This document shows positions 9,074 through 13,944 of a stretch of DNA of 64,000 nucleotides, in pieces. The notes beneath the pieces were generated by a model. It saw only the letters and a list, made by a program, of their open reading frames with translations, searched no databases and was not told the DNA's origin. This stretch comes from Phnomibacter ginsenosidimutans (lineage in GTDB: Bacteria; Bacteroidota; Bacteroidia; Chitinophagales; Chitinophagaceae), in NCBI RefSeq assembly GCF_009740285.1, contig NZ_CP046566.1, forward strand, positions 3,138,658 to 3,202,657, in the 5' to 3' direction. The first letter of the stretch is position 1. Every line of letters starts with the position of its first letter. The position numbers were made by a program, and so were the translations under genes.

Positions 9074-10344
9074 TTACAACCTTACTCTCACTGCATTGGC
9101 ATGTGCTTCGAGCCCTTCGGCTTCTGCCATGGCAATAACGGTTGGGGCAATGGCTTGCAAACCTTCGGGCGTCAATTGCTGGTACGTTATCTTTTTAACG
9201 AAGCTATCTATACTAACACCGCTGTACATGCGGGCATAACCATTGGTAGGCAGTGTGTGGTTGGTACCACTGGCATAATCGCCCACACTCTCCGGCGACA
9301 AATGCCCTATGAATACCGAACCGGCATTGATTACCTGCTCTGCAATCGCCGTTGCGTTGTTCATACTAATGATAAGATGTTCCGCAGCATACTCATTCAC
9401 CAGCTCTAACATGTCTTCGATGTTTGATAACACAACAGCAGTACTGTTTTCCAGTGCCGCTGCCGCCATGGCATTGCGGGGCAAACGGCTGAGTTGTGCA
9501 GCGAGTTCATCTTGCAATGCCTGCATATTGAAATCGGGCGTGGCTACCAGCAGCACCTGCGAATCTGCACCATGTTCGGCCTGACTCAATAAATCGGCCG
9601 CAACGTACTTTGGATTGGCGCTGTCATCAGCCATTACACATACTTCGCTGGGGCCTGCCGGCATATCGATGGGAATACCTGCTTGTTGTGCCAGCATTTT
9701 AGCTGCTGTTACATATTGATTGCCGGGGCCAAAAATTTTGCTGACGGCAGGAATACTTTCTGTACCGTACGTCATGGCAGCAATGGCTTGTGCACCACCG
9801 GCTTTGAAAATTTGTGTAACTCCTGCAACCTGTGCACTATACAGCACCGCCGGGTGCACCGTGCCATCTTTTTGTGGAGGTGTACACAACACAATTTCTT
9901 TACAGCCTGCCAGCTGTGCCGGCACAGCCAACATGAGCACGGTAGAAAAAGTGGTGCTGTTCCACCGGGAACATAAATACCTACCCGTTCTATACCCACC
10001 GACTTGCGCCAGCAGCGTACACCAGGCATGGTCTCTACTACTTCAGCAGGGGCGAGTTGTTTGCTGTGAAAAAAACGGATGTTGGCAGCAGCTTGTTCGA
10101 TGGCGGCTTTGAGCTCGTTGCTCAACATGTCAGCAGCTTCTGCTTTTTCTATTTCAGATACGGCCAGTTTTTGCAACTCCACGCCATCGAAATGTGCGGT
10201 GAAACGCAGCAATGCTGCATCGCCTTCTTGCCGTACGGCTTGCATCACCGGCTGCACTCTGGCATGGATCTCAGAGAGATTCATCACGGGGCGTTTGATG
10301 AGACTGGCCCACTCCTGTTTCTTCGGTTCTATTACTGATTTCAT
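9074..10344 (-). CDS. hisD: Histidinol dehydrogenase (frameshifted in this sequence)
   Basis: Two overlapping frames encode one HisD, the NAD- and Zn-dependent enzyme of the last two steps. The N-terminal frame ends after [13 protein letters not shown]; the second continues with [17 protein letters not shown], then PAGPSEV, the AAEHL segment and [18 protein letters not shown] with the catalytic Glu and His residues. The span of 1,271 bases lacks one base. Adding an A to the A5 run at 9946-9950 (T run on the coding strand) restores the conserved [14 protein letters not shown] and gives about 423 residues, the normal length. Probably a homopolymer sequencing error. R6 lies just upstream of the start. 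Confidence 0.92.
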
Positions 10345-10452: not shown

Positions 10453-11307
10453 CTAGACAATCATTTTCTCAATCGGTATCACCAGTATGCCTTGTGCACC
10501 ACGTTCTTTCAGTTGTTCAATGATGTTCCAGAAATCATTTTCATTCAGCACACTGTGTACGCTGCTCCAGCCGCTTTCGGCCAGTGGCAATACAGTGGGG
10601 CTTTTCATGCCGGGCAGCAAAGCAATGATTTCCTGCAGGCGATCGTTGGGTGCATTAAGCAAAATGTATTTGTTGTTCTTGGCCTTTTTTACTGCCTGCA
10701 TGCGAAACACCAGGCTGCTGAGGATAGCCAGTTTTTCTTCGCTCAACTCATTGTTGCGCACCAGTACGGCTTCGCTTTTGAGAATGGTTTCGGTTTCCTT
10801 CAAGCCATTCATGAACAAAGTGCTGCCGCTGCTTACCAAATCTACAATGGCATCGCTGAGGCCAATGCCGGGAGCAATTTCAACGCTGCCGCTGATTTCA
10901 TGTATTTCGGCGTTGATGTTGTTGTCGTCTAAAAACTTACGTACCAGTACAGGGTAACTGGTGGCAATGGTTTTGCCTTGCAAATATTGTGCACCGGTGT
11001 AGTTTTCGTCTTTGCCCACACCCACGGCCAGGCGGCATTTGCTAAAGCCGAGTTTTTCTACAACGGTCACCGCTTTCTGCTTTTCGTAGAGTACGTTTTC
11101 GCCTACAATACCAATGTCGGCTACTTTGTCGGCTACGTACTGTGGAATATCATCATCGCGGAGGAAGAATACTTCGAGGGGAAAGTTTTCGGCTTCGGCT
11201 TTGAGCTTGTTCATGCCGTTGCGAACGTCGATGCCGCAATCTTTCAGGAGCTTGATGCTGTCTTCGTAGAGGCGGCCGGATTTCTGAATGGCTATTTTGA
11301 GTTTCAT
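10453..11307 (-). CDS. hisG: ATP phosphoribosyltransferase, long (self-regulated) form
   Basis: A 284-residue first enzyme of histidine synthesis, joining ATP and PRPP. It is the long form: a type II periplasmic-binding-protein-like catalytic core (KIAIQKSGRL; the PRPP loop is near DAIVDLVSSGSTL) plus a C-terminal ACT-like regulatory domain from about residue 210 (GMKSPTVLPL, then WSSVHSVLNENDFWNIIEQL). The long form is normally inhibited by histidine and does not need HisZ. It is the first enzyme gene of the operon, 130 bp downstream of the attenuator terminator. Confidence 0.97.
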   Translation of the reverse strand: MKLKIAIQKSGRLYEDSIKLLKDCGIDVRNGMNKLKAEAENFPLEVFFLRDDDIPQYVADKVADIGIVGENVLYEKQKAVTVVEKLGFSKCRLAVGVGKDENYTGAQYLQGKTIATSYPVLVRKFLDDNNINAEIHEISGSVEIAPGIGLSDAIVDLVSSGSTLFMNGLKETETILKSEAVLVRNNELSEEKLAILSSLVFRMQAVKKAKNNKYILLNAPNDRLQEIIALLPGMKSPTVLPLAESGWSSVHSVLNENDFWNIIEQLKERGAQGILVIPIEKMIV

Positions 11308-11437
11308 ACTATGCTTTGCGTTTTTCGTTTGTCGTTTTTTGTTATTGGTTCTTCGTCAATTGTCTCTGGTTCATTGAGGCGATGCAGATGCAGTGAGTGA
11401 CACAACACCGCTGCCACCTGCACTACAGCTCATCAAC

Positions 11438-11479
11438 AAAAAAACAAGAAGGGCTCACCACGTAGGTAAGCCCTTCTTG
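11438..11479 (-). terminator. Attenuator terminator of the his operon
   Basis: An 11-bp perfect stem (11445-11455 with 11469-11479) is followed on the minus strand by seven U (A run at 11438-11444). The loop can add a further ACC/GGT pairing. It lies 37 bases after the hisL stop codon and before hisG. Alternative pairings are visible in the leader RNA: CGUACA (within the leader codons, 11551-11556) with UGUACG (11498-11503), and the same downstream segment (ACGUA) with UACGU in the terminator loop. The strong hairpin is plain in the sequence; the alternative structures are weak and inferred. Confidence 0.85.
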
Positions 11480-11516
11480 CAATGTTTTGTATGTATACGT
11501 ACACAACAGCACCGGC

Positions 11517-11570
11517 CTACCCGAGGAGGTAAGTATGATGATGATGGATATGTACGAGCTGCTTTTTCAT
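11517..11570 (-). CDS. hisL: his operon leader peptide
   Basis: A 17-residue ORF, MKKQLVHIHHHHTYLLG, with five His in six residues, all as CAT codons. It starts 8 bases after a consensus promoter and is followed after 37 bases by a strong rho-independent terminator, then hisG. This is the classic arrangement for ribosome-mediated attenuation: when His-tRNA is scarce, ribosomes stall on the CAT run and the terminator does not form. The peptide is expected to have no function of its own. The predicted 5' leader is only a few bases long, so translation would be nearly leaderless. Confidence 0.88.
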   Translation of the reverse strand: MKKQLVHIHHHHTYLLG

Positions 11571-11578
11571 TTGCTGTG

Positions 11579-11609
11579 CAAAAATAGGCCGACATTTCAA
11601 ACCGCCAAA
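11579..11609 (-). promoter_or_regulatory. Promoter of the his operon (Bacteroidetes type)
   Basis: On the minus strand TTTG (11606-11609) is followed after exactly 19 bases by TATTTTTG (11579-11586), a full match to the Bacteroidetes TTTG-N19-TAnnTTTG consensus. Transcription should begin around 11572-11575, directly ahead of the hisL ATG at 11570. Confidence 0.8.
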
Positions 11610-11650
11610 TTCGGAAACCGGTATTTTCGTTTTCCTGACGAATAACTGAC

Positions 11651-13093
11651 ATGAACAAAACCATTGATACCATAGAAACGCTGGCGGCACAAGCCTGTGG
11701 CCATGTACCAGAACGCATTGAACTATTGCCCCAAAGTGGTAGCGACAGACGCTATTTCCGGATTTATGATGAAGGAAAAACGCTGATTGGCACGTATAAC
11801 CTCAACATAAAAGAGAACGACACTTTCATTTATTTCAGCCGGCACTTTTCGGAGAAAGGCCTGCCCGTACCCGCTATTGTAGCTGTAAATGAAAAAGGCA
11901 CGGCCTACATTCAAACCGACCTGGGCAACGACAGCCTGCTGAACAAACTGGAAGCCCACGGCTACAATGACTATGTAAAAAGCTTGTTTGCTGAAAGCCT
12001 CACCCAGCTGGCCCGCCTGCAAGTGAAGGGCCATGAAGGCCTCGATTACAACCGCTGCATTACGGCGAAAGAGTTTGGCAAGCAGGCCATTTTGAGCGAC
12101 CTGCTGTATTTTAAATATTACTTTCTGGATGCCTTGCAGCAACCCTACGACAAGCAGGCCATGATTGATGATTTTGATGCACTGGCTACTTACCTGACGC
12201 ATACGGAATACAAGTTTTTTATGTTCCGCGATTTTCAGAGCCGCAACATCATCATCAACAACGACCAGCCCTACTTCATCGATTATCAGGGTGGCATGAA
12301 AGGTGCTCCGCAATACGATGCTGCCAGTATGATTTGGCAGGCCCGTGCCGACCTGCCAGATGACTGGAAGCAAGACTTGCTGCTGCATTACATGACCTCT
12401 TTGGAAGAAGTACTGGGCCACCCTATTGACCGTAACATTTTTGTGGCACAGTACTATGGCTATGTGCTCATTCGCTTATTGCAAGTGTTGGGTGCGTATG
12501 GCTTCCGTGGTTTGTTTGAAAGAAAGGCGCAGTTTTTGAGCAGCATACCACAAGCATTGCGCAACCTGAAATGGTTTATCACAAACCGTCCGCTGGCAAT
12601 ACATGTGCCCGAGTTTAAACGCATGCTCAATCTGGTGGTAGATGATGCCGTGATTGCCCGTTTTGATCCGCCGAAGGCTGATGAAAACACGCCGCTGGTG
12701 GTGGAAGTCAACAGCTTTAGCTTTAAGAAAAATGGCTACCCCAAAGATGACAGCGATAACGGTGGTGGATTTGTGTTTGACATGCGGGGCATACTCAACC
12801 CCGGCCGCATAGACGAATACAAAACCCTGACGGGTAAAGACAAAGAAGTGATGGACTATCTGGAACAGAAAACCCGCATGCCGGAGTTTTTGAATAGTGT
12901 GTGGGATATGGTAGACATCAGCGTGGAAGATTATTTGCAACGCGGTTTTAGCAAACTGATGGTAAACTTTGGTTGCACGGGTGGCCAGCACCGCAGTGTG
13001 TATGCCGCCGAGCAAACCGCCCGCCACCTGCGCAATAAGTACAAGGTGAAAACAGTAGTAACGCACATTAATAGTGAGCATTGGGTGAAGTAG
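11651..13093 (+). CDS. Sugar kinase (AmgK/APH-like) fused to a RapZ C-terminal domain
   Basis: A 480-residue two-domain protein. Residues 1-330 or so are an aminoglycoside-phosphotransferase-like kinase: the SGSDRRYFRIYDEG nucleotide loop, the catalytic loop FMFRDFQSRNII, and the metal site YFIDYQGG. AmgK kinases of this type phosphorylate MurNAc and GlcNAc at the anomeric carbon. Residues from about 345 to 480 match the C-terminal domain of RapZ (VVEVNSFSFKKNGYP, FDMRGILNPG, GCTGGQHRSVYAAEQ), which in E. coli binds glucosamine-6-phosphate and small RNA. The next gene is a MurU-like nucleotidyltransferase, so a cell-wall sugar salvage role is likely. The gene is divergent from the his operon. 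Confidence 0.85.
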   Translation: MNKTIDTIETLAAQACGHVPERIELLPQSGSDRRYFRIYDEGKTLIGTYNLNIKENDTFIYFSRHFSEKGLPVPAIVAVNEKGTAYIQTDLGNDSLLNKLEAHGYNDYVKSLFAESLTQLARLQVKGHEGLDYNRCITAKEFGKQAILSDLLYFKYYFLDALQQPYDKQAMIDDFDALATYLTHTEYKFFMFRDFQSRNIIINNDQPYFIDYQGGMKGAPQYDAASMIWQARADLPDDWKQDLLLHYMTSLEEVLGHPIDRNIFVAQYYGYVLIRLLQVLGAYGFRGLFERKAQFLSSIPQALRNLKWFITNRPLAIHVPEFKRMLNLVVDDAVIARFDPPKADENTPLVVEVNSFSFKKNGYPKDDSDNGGGFVFDMRGILNPGRIDEYKTLTGKDKEVMDYLEQKTRMPEFLNSVWDMVDISVEDYLQRGFSKLMVNFGCTGGQHRSVYAAEQTARHLRNKYKVKTVVTHINSEHWVK

Positions 13094-13227: not shown

Positions 13228-13944
13228 ATGATAGCCATGATACTCGCCGCCGGCCTCGGCACAAGATTGAAACCGTGGACAGATGCGCATCCTAAAGCGC
13301 TGGCAGTGGTGAATGGCAAGCCGGTGCTGCAGCGCAATATTGAATACCTGCAACAAGCGGGCATACAAAAAGTGGTGGTAAACGTTCATCATTTTGCGGA
13401 TCAAATTATGGCTGCAGTGCAAGCAAACAATGGCTGGGGCGCCGAAGTGCTGATAAGCGATGAAACGGATGAAGTGCTGGAAACTGGCGGCGGCATTCGC
13501 AAAGCGGTGCCCTTGTTTGGCGATGCTACAGATGTGCTGGTAATGAATGCCGACATCCTCACAGATATGAACCTGCAGGCATTTATGCAGGCACATGCCA
13601 GCAACAAAGCCGATGCTACACTGGCAGTGAGCAATCGTTCTTCCTCCCGTTGTTTTTTGTTTGATCTGCAGCACCAACTGGTGGGCTGGCGCAATAAAAA
13701 CACTGGTGAAACCAAACTGCCTGTTGCTACGGATGCTCCTGTTGAAAAATCTTTCAGCGGCATCCACATCATCAATGAAAGTATATTCCGGCACATGCCT
13801 TTTGAAGGTAAGTTTTCGATGGTGGATGTGTACCTGCAACTGTGTGCTACGCACCGTATACAATCGTTTGATCACAGTGGCAGCAAGTTCATTGATATCG
13901 GCACGATGGAAAAACTGGCACAAGCGGCGGAAATGTTTATTTAA
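13228..13944 (+). CDS. MurNAc-1-phosphate uridylyltransferase-like nucleotidyltransferase
   Basis: A 238-residue GT-A-fold NTP transferase. It has the nucleotide loop MILAAGLGTRLKPWTDAHPKAL, the motif LETGGGIRKAVPLFGD, and NADIL with the metal-binding Asp. These match MurU, which makes UDP-MurNAc from MurNAc-1-phosphate in the salvage route that bypasses MurA and fosfomycin. An AmgK-like kinase lies directly upstream, the usual partner. Two in-frame starts are possible (13228 or 13237); MIAMILAAG versus MILAAG. A sugar-1-phosphate other than MurNAc cannot be excluded. Confidence 0.83.
   Translation: MIAMILAAGLGTRLKPWTDAHPKALAVVNGKPVLQRNIEYLQQAGIQKVVVNVHHFADQIMAAVQANNGWGAEVLISDETDEVLETGGGIRKAVPLFGDATDVLVMNADILTDMNLQAFMQAHASNKADATLAVSNRSSSRCFLFDLQHQLVGWRNKNTGETKLPVATDAPVEKSFSGIHIINESIFRHMPFEGKFSMVDVYLQLCATHRIQSFDHSGSKFIDIGTMEKLAQAAEMFI

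Follow-up and report, generated by a model that had tools for sequence, protein, structure and literature searches.

The window analysed here, a 64,000-nucleotide (nt) stretch of the Phnomibacter ginsenosidimutans genome (contig NZ_CP046566.1, positions 3,138,658 to 3,202,657), carries a complete attenuator on its minus strand, placed between a divergent gene and hisG, the first structural gene of the histidine (his) operon. This element is very probably a ribosome-mediated his transcription attenuator with a near-leaderless leader peptide, its start, its translation and its response to histidine being predicted from the DNA. A preliminary description of the stretch had proposed a his attenuator at this position; sequence comparison supported that reading and added an antiterminator, absent from the description, which exists and is conserved. 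The elements of the attenuator, in window coordinates, are as follows.

11606..11609, minus strand: -33 element (TTTG) of the predicted promoter, matching the Bacteroidota consensus
11579..11586, minus strand: -7 element TATTTTTG, read from the sequence and kept in relatives
11573..11574, minus strand: predicted transcription start, with a 5′ untranslated region (5′ UTR) of 3-4 nt, placed by the spacing that a part of PMC6847099 gives for Flavobacterium johnsoniae
11517..11570, minus strand: leader open reading frame (ORF) hisL, MKKQLVHIHHHHTYLLG, 17 codons, ATG at 11570 and stop codon TAG at 11519-11517; a His-rich ORF is kept in relatives
11535..11552, minus strand: His codon run CAT ATC CAT CAT CAT CAT
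11528..11533, minus strand: region 1, CUUACC, within the final codons of the ORF, pairing with region 2 in the fold
11514..11521, minus strand: region 2, GGUAGGCC, which contains the stop codon UAG, placed by alignment and register
11465..11472, minus strand: region 3, GGCUUACC, common to the antiterminator (2:3) and the terminator (3:4), placed by alignment
11452..11459, minus strand: region 4, GGUGAGCC, pairing with region 3 in 100% of aligned cells
11444..11480, minus strand: intrinsic terminator hairpin, 16 pairs (8 of them G-C) and a 5-nt loop, from the fold
11438..11444, minus strand: U7 tract, the first T of which overlaps the outermost counted pair of the terminator

The promoter TTTG-N19-TATTTTTG is a full match to the Bacteroidota consensus TTTG/TAnnTTTG (PMC6847099, PMC7366714), as had been claimed, and the 17-codon ORF with five CAT in six codons is likewise present, CAT occupying codons 7, 9, 10, 11 and 12. 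The nearly leaderless position of its ATG, 8 nt past the -7 box, was also borne out. As for the terminator, the hairpin and the U7 tract ahead of hisG stood, and the length of 11 pairs had to be revised to 16. The 148-nt leader has a folding energy of -52.4 kcal/mol, compared with a mean of -33.9 for shuffled sequences (z -4.8; none of 200 shuffles as good), and three mutually exclusive helices can be read in it. Helix 1:2 joins CUUACC (11533-11528) to GGGUAG and is a competing hairpin directly after the His codons. Helix 2:3, the antiterminator, joins GGUAGGCC (11521-11514) to GGCUUACC (11472-11465) through 8 pairs, one of them G-U; it uses the 5′ arm of the terminator and therefore excludes helix 3:4, the terminator itself. 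Counted from the last His codon, region 1 starts after one nt and region 2 after 13 nt.

Conservation was assessed in the best 80 of 574 hisG relatives from named genomes, whose titles are mostly Chitinophagaceae (the family of the window, f1 below) or Bacteroidota bins. In 78 of these 80 loci hisG has a His-rich leader ahead of it, within 500 nt in 77 of them and farther upstream in the other (L042); the loci without a counted leader are L043, where just 42 nt of upstream DNA are available, and L072, which fails the ATG rule. An alignment of 54 leaders (53 of the 77 plus that of the window; L051 was excluded because its start is unclear) was then used to score the helices. The terminator is paired in every cell, with 13 cells changed on both sides (reached by none of 500 shuffles), and its percentage paired and covariation score both beat the shuffles (0 and 0 of 500). 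The antiterminator is paired in 97.4% of cells, with two pairs changed on both sides (reached by 2 of 500 shuffles), and its pairing falls to 19-54% when the partner is slid by 1-3 columns. As to covariation of the terminator and antiterminator stems, suggested as a check in the preliminary description, changes on both sides occur in both stems, and those of the antiterminator are sparse within the family. Helix 1:2 is paired in 94.1% of cells, again with two pairs changed on both sides (21 of 500 shuffles). The register between codons and helices was also kept: the TTACC of region 1 begins 3 nt past the last His codon in 37 of the 54 leaders, region 2 begins 13 nt past it in 36, and the stop codon begins 2 nt into region 2 in 44. 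This strict register indicates that the RNA helices dictate how the peptide ends (often LP-x-R/G-stop).

The leader is also found well beyond the family. HisG is present in 213 of 247 genomes searched, and the phylum sample of 137 hisG upstreams consisted of 130 of those 213 (30 loci and 100 hand-chosen stretches, among the matches listed) together with 7 same-genus loci. By the His-codon leader rule, 92 of the 137 upstreams carry a His-rich leader, compared with a mean of 2.05 in dinucleotide shuffles and with 0-22 for ten other codon sets, the highest (22) being Phe. Families in which all sampled members are positive include f1, f2 (5), f3 (6), f4 (3), f5 (26), f8 (6), f11 (2) and f34 (5); f16 (11/12) and f23 (7/23) are partly positive, and f12, f13, f14, f17 and f18 (0/15) have no positive members in the sample. 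Of 169 leaders, those of the named loci among them, 150 are followed by a terminator (free energy, dG, of -8 or lower, plus a T run). The ORF with its His codons and the hairpin, which had been described from one stretch alone, are thus conserved in related genomes. The helix sequences differ by family, with their roles kept as judged by eye: region 2 and its partner read GGUARGCC/GGCUUACC in f1, CUCARGCG/CGUUUGAG in f5 and GCGCCGG/CCGGCGC in f16. In a set of 108 leaders (the 150 with a terminator, reduced to 116 by removal of near-duplicates and then filtered on the lengths of arm and region), pairing between region 2 and the terminator arm was better for matched than for mismatched combinations (mean -10.9 vs -8.8 kcal/mol; z -10.9; 0 of 5000 permutations). 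Region 2 of many leaders in f5 and f16 sits inside the ORF and ends ahead of the stop codon. By eye, f5 (e.g. L129, L134) and f16 (e.g. L159-L178) present two other his-attenuator layouts with unrelated helix sequences.

The second feature of the leader is the closeness of its ATG to the promoter. Of the 90 leaders from the own family, a set that includes near-identical ones, 80 have a -7 box within 110 nt, and in 70 of these the box lies 4-10 nt from the ATG, which implies a 5′ UTR of about 0-6 nt. At the named loci the end of the box is never less than 4 nt from the leader ATG, as expected if transcription cannot start within the ORF; that survey allowed distances down to 0, and in the family survey the minimum distance was 3 nt. 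Of 288 other long ORFs of the same loci and the window, a background from which 47 hisG genes had been removed and in which others may remain, 3 have an upstream box at 4-10 nt. The choice of leader start favours ATGs that have a box no more than 20 nt away. Under this rule, however, 33 of the 34 boxes in four other families still lie at 13-57 nt (13-48 nt in f3, 16-19 in f4, 17-57 in f5 with one at 7, and 21-26 in f16), and the short distance is thus not forced by it. A strict consensus promoter lies within 60 nt upstream of the leader ATG in 72 of 91 own-family leaders (the 91st being L042) and between the ATG and hisG in none of the 91, which argues against a transcription start downstream of the leader ORF, the alternative that the preliminary description had raised. 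The strict-promoter background before long ORFs amounts to 7 cases, too few to serve, of which some at least are the his promoter seen from hisG. The near-leaderless start, as predicted from promoter position, is therefore a pattern of the family and not a quirk of one genome.

An unlikely alternative to this near-leaderless arrangement keeps the his attenuator but gives it an ordinary 5′ UTR: the promoter match would not be the real one, transcription would start farther upstream and ribosomes would load normally. Leaderless mRNAs are rare where they have been measured in the Bacteroidota, as the parts of three reports bearing on this indicate: they make up 5.5% in F. psychrophilum (PMC9723704), 3.7% of B. 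thetaiotaomicron mRNAs have a leader under 10 nt (PMC7366714), and 87% of F. johnsoniae leaders exceed 10 nt (PMC6847099). The longer distances in f3, f4, f5 and f16 given above, and the ilv leader described below, point the same way. Against an ordinary 5′ UTR, TATTTTTG is the sole -7-like box within 11250-11720 on the minus strand, and it lies 8 nt from the ATG; the short distance is moreover kept at most family his, trp and phe leaders and is never below 4 nt. A sigma-70 promoter scan gave no match on the minus strand. Read-through from an upstream gene is also unlikely, because the adjacent gene (ORF 11651-13093, plus strand) points the other way and a second -7-like box is lacking. A 5′ UTR of a few nt has no room for a Shine-Dalgarno site, and initiation on a 5′-terminal or near-terminal AUG is thus likely, as judged from promoter position.

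Leaders of similar design were found at other biosynthetic operons of the same genome. The trpE leader MNFTQHNIWWWQLIR begins 6 nt after a box CAATTTTG that has TTTG 19 nt ahead of it (L237 1303-1455; G000:C1:152743 region), and the Phe/Tyr-rich pheA leader MNKWFTYAGFYFFYFTESKADRN begins 5 nt after a box TATATTTG (L241 1303-1464; G000:C1:1873002 region). A terminator hairpin follows both. Compared with shuffles, the trp leader folds with z -4.1 (0 of 200) and the phe leader more weakly, with z -1.8 (7 of 200). A family survey with the looser box [TC]AHHTT[TC]G covered the best 30 trpE loci (59 of 60 genomes had some match, many of them to a distant paralogue) and the best 30 of 44 pheA loci. 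Trp leaders were present at all 30 trpE loci, with a box in 26 that lay at 4-9 nt in 23, and Phe-rich leaders at 29 of the 30 pheA loci, with a box in 28 that lay at 4-10 nt in 23; neither set has a box less than 4 nt from the ATG. Under the loose rule, 4.2 of 30 shuffled upstreams scored as having a Trp leader and 7.0 of 30 as having a Phe leader. A leader combined with a box at 4-10 nt occurred in 0.1 of 30 shuffled upstreams, against 25 (Trp) and 24 (Phe) of 30 observed by that count.

Ahead of ilvE an Ile/Val-rich leader, MLNRLANTTIIISTILVVMVIIVPVLHGGAS, is followed by an 11-pair terminator (L242 2602-2797). At leuA and at two homoserine dehydrogenase loci, no -7-like box followed by a codon-run leader was seen. 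By eye, a terminator-like hairpin and T run stand just upstream of leuA (L245 ~1400-1490), and other leu regulation is possible there. A scan of the genome for the strict near-leaderless pattern returned 18 sites, among which the his leader is by eye the only codon-run attenuator; the scan missed the trp leader, with its box CAATTTTG, and the phe leader, which has no strict -33 element. Another locus (L220, G000:C1:211439-211482) shows a strict promoter, 8 nt, a three-codon ORF (MKQ), immediately after it a terminator-like hairpin, and then a gene starting MEKNEQIVRIENM, all by eye.

Several observations weigh against the interpretation of the leader as a near-leaderless attenuator. The percentage paired of the antiterminator (shuffle mean 97.0; 68 of 500) and its covariation score (46 of 500) are not clearly above shuffles, and those of helix 1:2 (426 and 416 of 500) are not above them; the contrast is weak because both helices hardly vary. 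By the rule used, 45 of the 137 sampled upstreams have no His leader, the status of hisG as first gene being unchecked there. The arm-matching signal is weak within families (f1, z -2.4, 41 of 5000; f16, 744 of 5000; f5, 1182 of 5000), and most of the overall z therefore reflects differences between families, with phylogeny uncorrected. As to the start, 10 of the 90 own-family leaders have no scoring box and 10 more have it at 12-32 nt. The strict promoter pattern is weak on its own, with 18 genome matches against 13 for the reversed control. Close boxes also occur in f2 (3/3 at 9-10 nt), f8 (3/3 at 9), f23 (3/4 at 5) and f34 (2/3 at 8), mostly without a strict -33 element, and the near-leaderless start is thus not exclusive to the Chitinophagaceae. 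Finally, the nearest -7-like box of the ilvE leader, TATATTCG, has no -33 element and lies 21 nt from the ATG; the near-leaderless design is thus common to three systems and not to all.

At the level of sequence and its comparison, the promoter match, the ORF and the three helices, with their conservation and register, are established. From them we infer the start site, the ribosome footprint, the stalling and the response to histidine in the following manner, using textbook values for the dimensions of the ribosome. RNA polymerase would start 3-4 nt ahead of the AUG, and a ribosome could then begin, with no Shine-Dalgarno site, only at the 5′ end or immediately beside it. When charged tRNA-His is short, the ribosome would stall in the His run with its front edge covering region 1 but not region 2; region 2, left free, would pair with region 3 to form the antiterminator, and the operon would be transcribed. 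When histidine is plentiful, the ribosome would reach the stop codon inside region 2 and cover that region, allowing the 3:4 terminator to form. Without any ribosome, helices 1:2 and 3:4 would form and transcription would end too.

We lean slightly towards a broader proposal, in which the his, trp and phe attenuators of the Chitinophagaceae are built on leaderless leader peptides with the promoter-AUG distance locked, so that ribosomes would load as the AUG leaves RNA polymerase and coupled control would operate free of Shine-Dalgarno sites. With the his stop codon base-paired in the antiterminator, termination of leader translation would coincide with the RNA switch as a single event. Because the ilv leader seemingly lacks the near-leaderless design, the probability of this proposal is lowered.

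In the his attenuator of Salmonella and E. coli, a leader ORF with His codons, a terminator, an antiterminator and a 1:2 hairpin precede hisG, the first gene. The leader described here shares with it the His run in a short ORF, the terminator before the first his gene, the antiterminator and 1:2 hairpin, and hisG in first place. It differs in its Bacteroidota-type promoter, its near-leaderless start, its shorter His run (5 codons in 6), the position of the stop codon within the antiterminator strand, and its failure to match an Rfam his leader model. At gathering score no Rfam family was matched in the window or in eight further loci, and His_leader (which we take to be RF00514) gave no match even at E up to 10. 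Thr_leader was the best sub-threshold match in the leader, at 27.3 bits against a gathering score of 55; kinship with it was rejected, the weak match being taken to reflect a shared layout. The his leader would thus work like the Rfam His_leader family but is not a relative that Rfam recognises.

Two other explanations of the leader as a whole were considered. It is very improbable that the ORF yields a functional small His-rich peptide, for example one that binds metal or acts in trans, and that the hairpin is merely the terminator of a small RNA. A leader peptide acting in trans does have a precedent in peTrpL of Sinorhizobium meliloti, according to the relevant part of PMC7298713. Here, however, the residues past the His run track the RNA helices and vary by family (LP-R/G in most of f1, SQA in f5 and AG in f16), and Trp- and Phe-rich versions exist at trpE and pheA. 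Scarcely credible is another his leader mechanism, namely a T-box, an RNA bound by a protein or a DnaA-dependent element like that suggested for his in E. coli: T-boxes regulate his genes of Firmicutes and Actinobacteria (PMC9413887, in part) and a DnaA-dependent his leader has been put forward (PMC10989985, in part), but no Rfam family reached gathering score in the window (no search for DnaA boxes was made), the best sub-threshold match is itself an amino-acid leader, and none of these mechanisms needs His codons that stand in register with the helices.

With ribosome-mediated attenuation as the preferred reading, the closest precedents lie within the phylum and in other leaderless leader peptides. 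Strong clues for leader-peptide attenuation ahead of amino-acid biosynthesis operons have been reported for Flavobacterium psychrophilum, of the same phylum as the window, the passages concerned leaving the operons unnamed (PMC9723704). The sampled f5 leaders differ from that of the window in having region 2 within the reading frame and, for 18 of 19 boxes, a distance of 17-57 nt from the ATG. Bacteroid-trp RNA (RF01692) is, in the pertinent part of PMC2864571, a predicted cis-regulatory RNA of Bacteroidetes; the phylum is common to both and the name suggests trp genes, but the trpE leader L237 did not match RF01692 at gathering score. Leaderless leader peptides are known as trpL of S. meliloti (PMC7298713) and as leuL, trpL, ilvL and others of Streptomyces lividans (PMC8079986). 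As far as the parts of these papers on the leaders go, they resemble the present case in having an attenuator leader ORF at the RNA 5′ end, a position that is predicted here; they differ in belonging to other phyla and in having measured starts, whereas in the present phylum leaderless mRNAs are rare and Shine-Dalgarno sites are lacking, and three amino-acid systems of one family are concerned, with predicted starts. Our search of the literature, which covered few subscription journals and left the content of a 2010 survey unread, found no paper on a his attenuator or on near-leaderless attenuator leaders in Bacteroidota. The kind of attenuator is already known, and the near-leaderless start looks new.

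How Bacteroidota ribosomes find starts without Shine-Dalgarno sites, and whether they follow RNA polymerase closely enough for control, is an open question. Since an attenuator works only with a ribosome on the leader in time, such leaders are natural reporters of coupling, and the near-leaderless design at three operons, set against ordinary 5′ UTRs at the ilv leader and in related families, permits a direct test of leaderless initiation and coupling. The analysis also provides a phylum-wide set of his leaders, with no Rfam model matched in the loci scanned.

The structural genes that follow the attenuator are listed below.

10453..11307, minus strand: hisG, the first structural gene, ATG at 11307 (TIGR00070, E 4.4e-56; TIGR03455, E 8e-31)
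9074..10344, minus strand: hisD, in two overlapping frames in this assembly, both pieces matching TIGR00069
7863..8945, minus strand: hisC (TIGR01141, E 8.2e-109)

In the relatives L002, L083 and L084, hisD is a single open frame of about 427 codons, and the split seen here is either an assembly error or a recent frameshift. The divergent gene upstream (11651-13093, plus strand) consists of an AmgK-like sugar kinase part fused to a RapZ C-terminal part; its matches to NF045759 (E 9.3e-16) and NF003828 (E 1.1e-28) are both under the NCBIfam cut-off. The ORF at 13228, which follows this gene, resembles a nucleotidyltransferase by eye.
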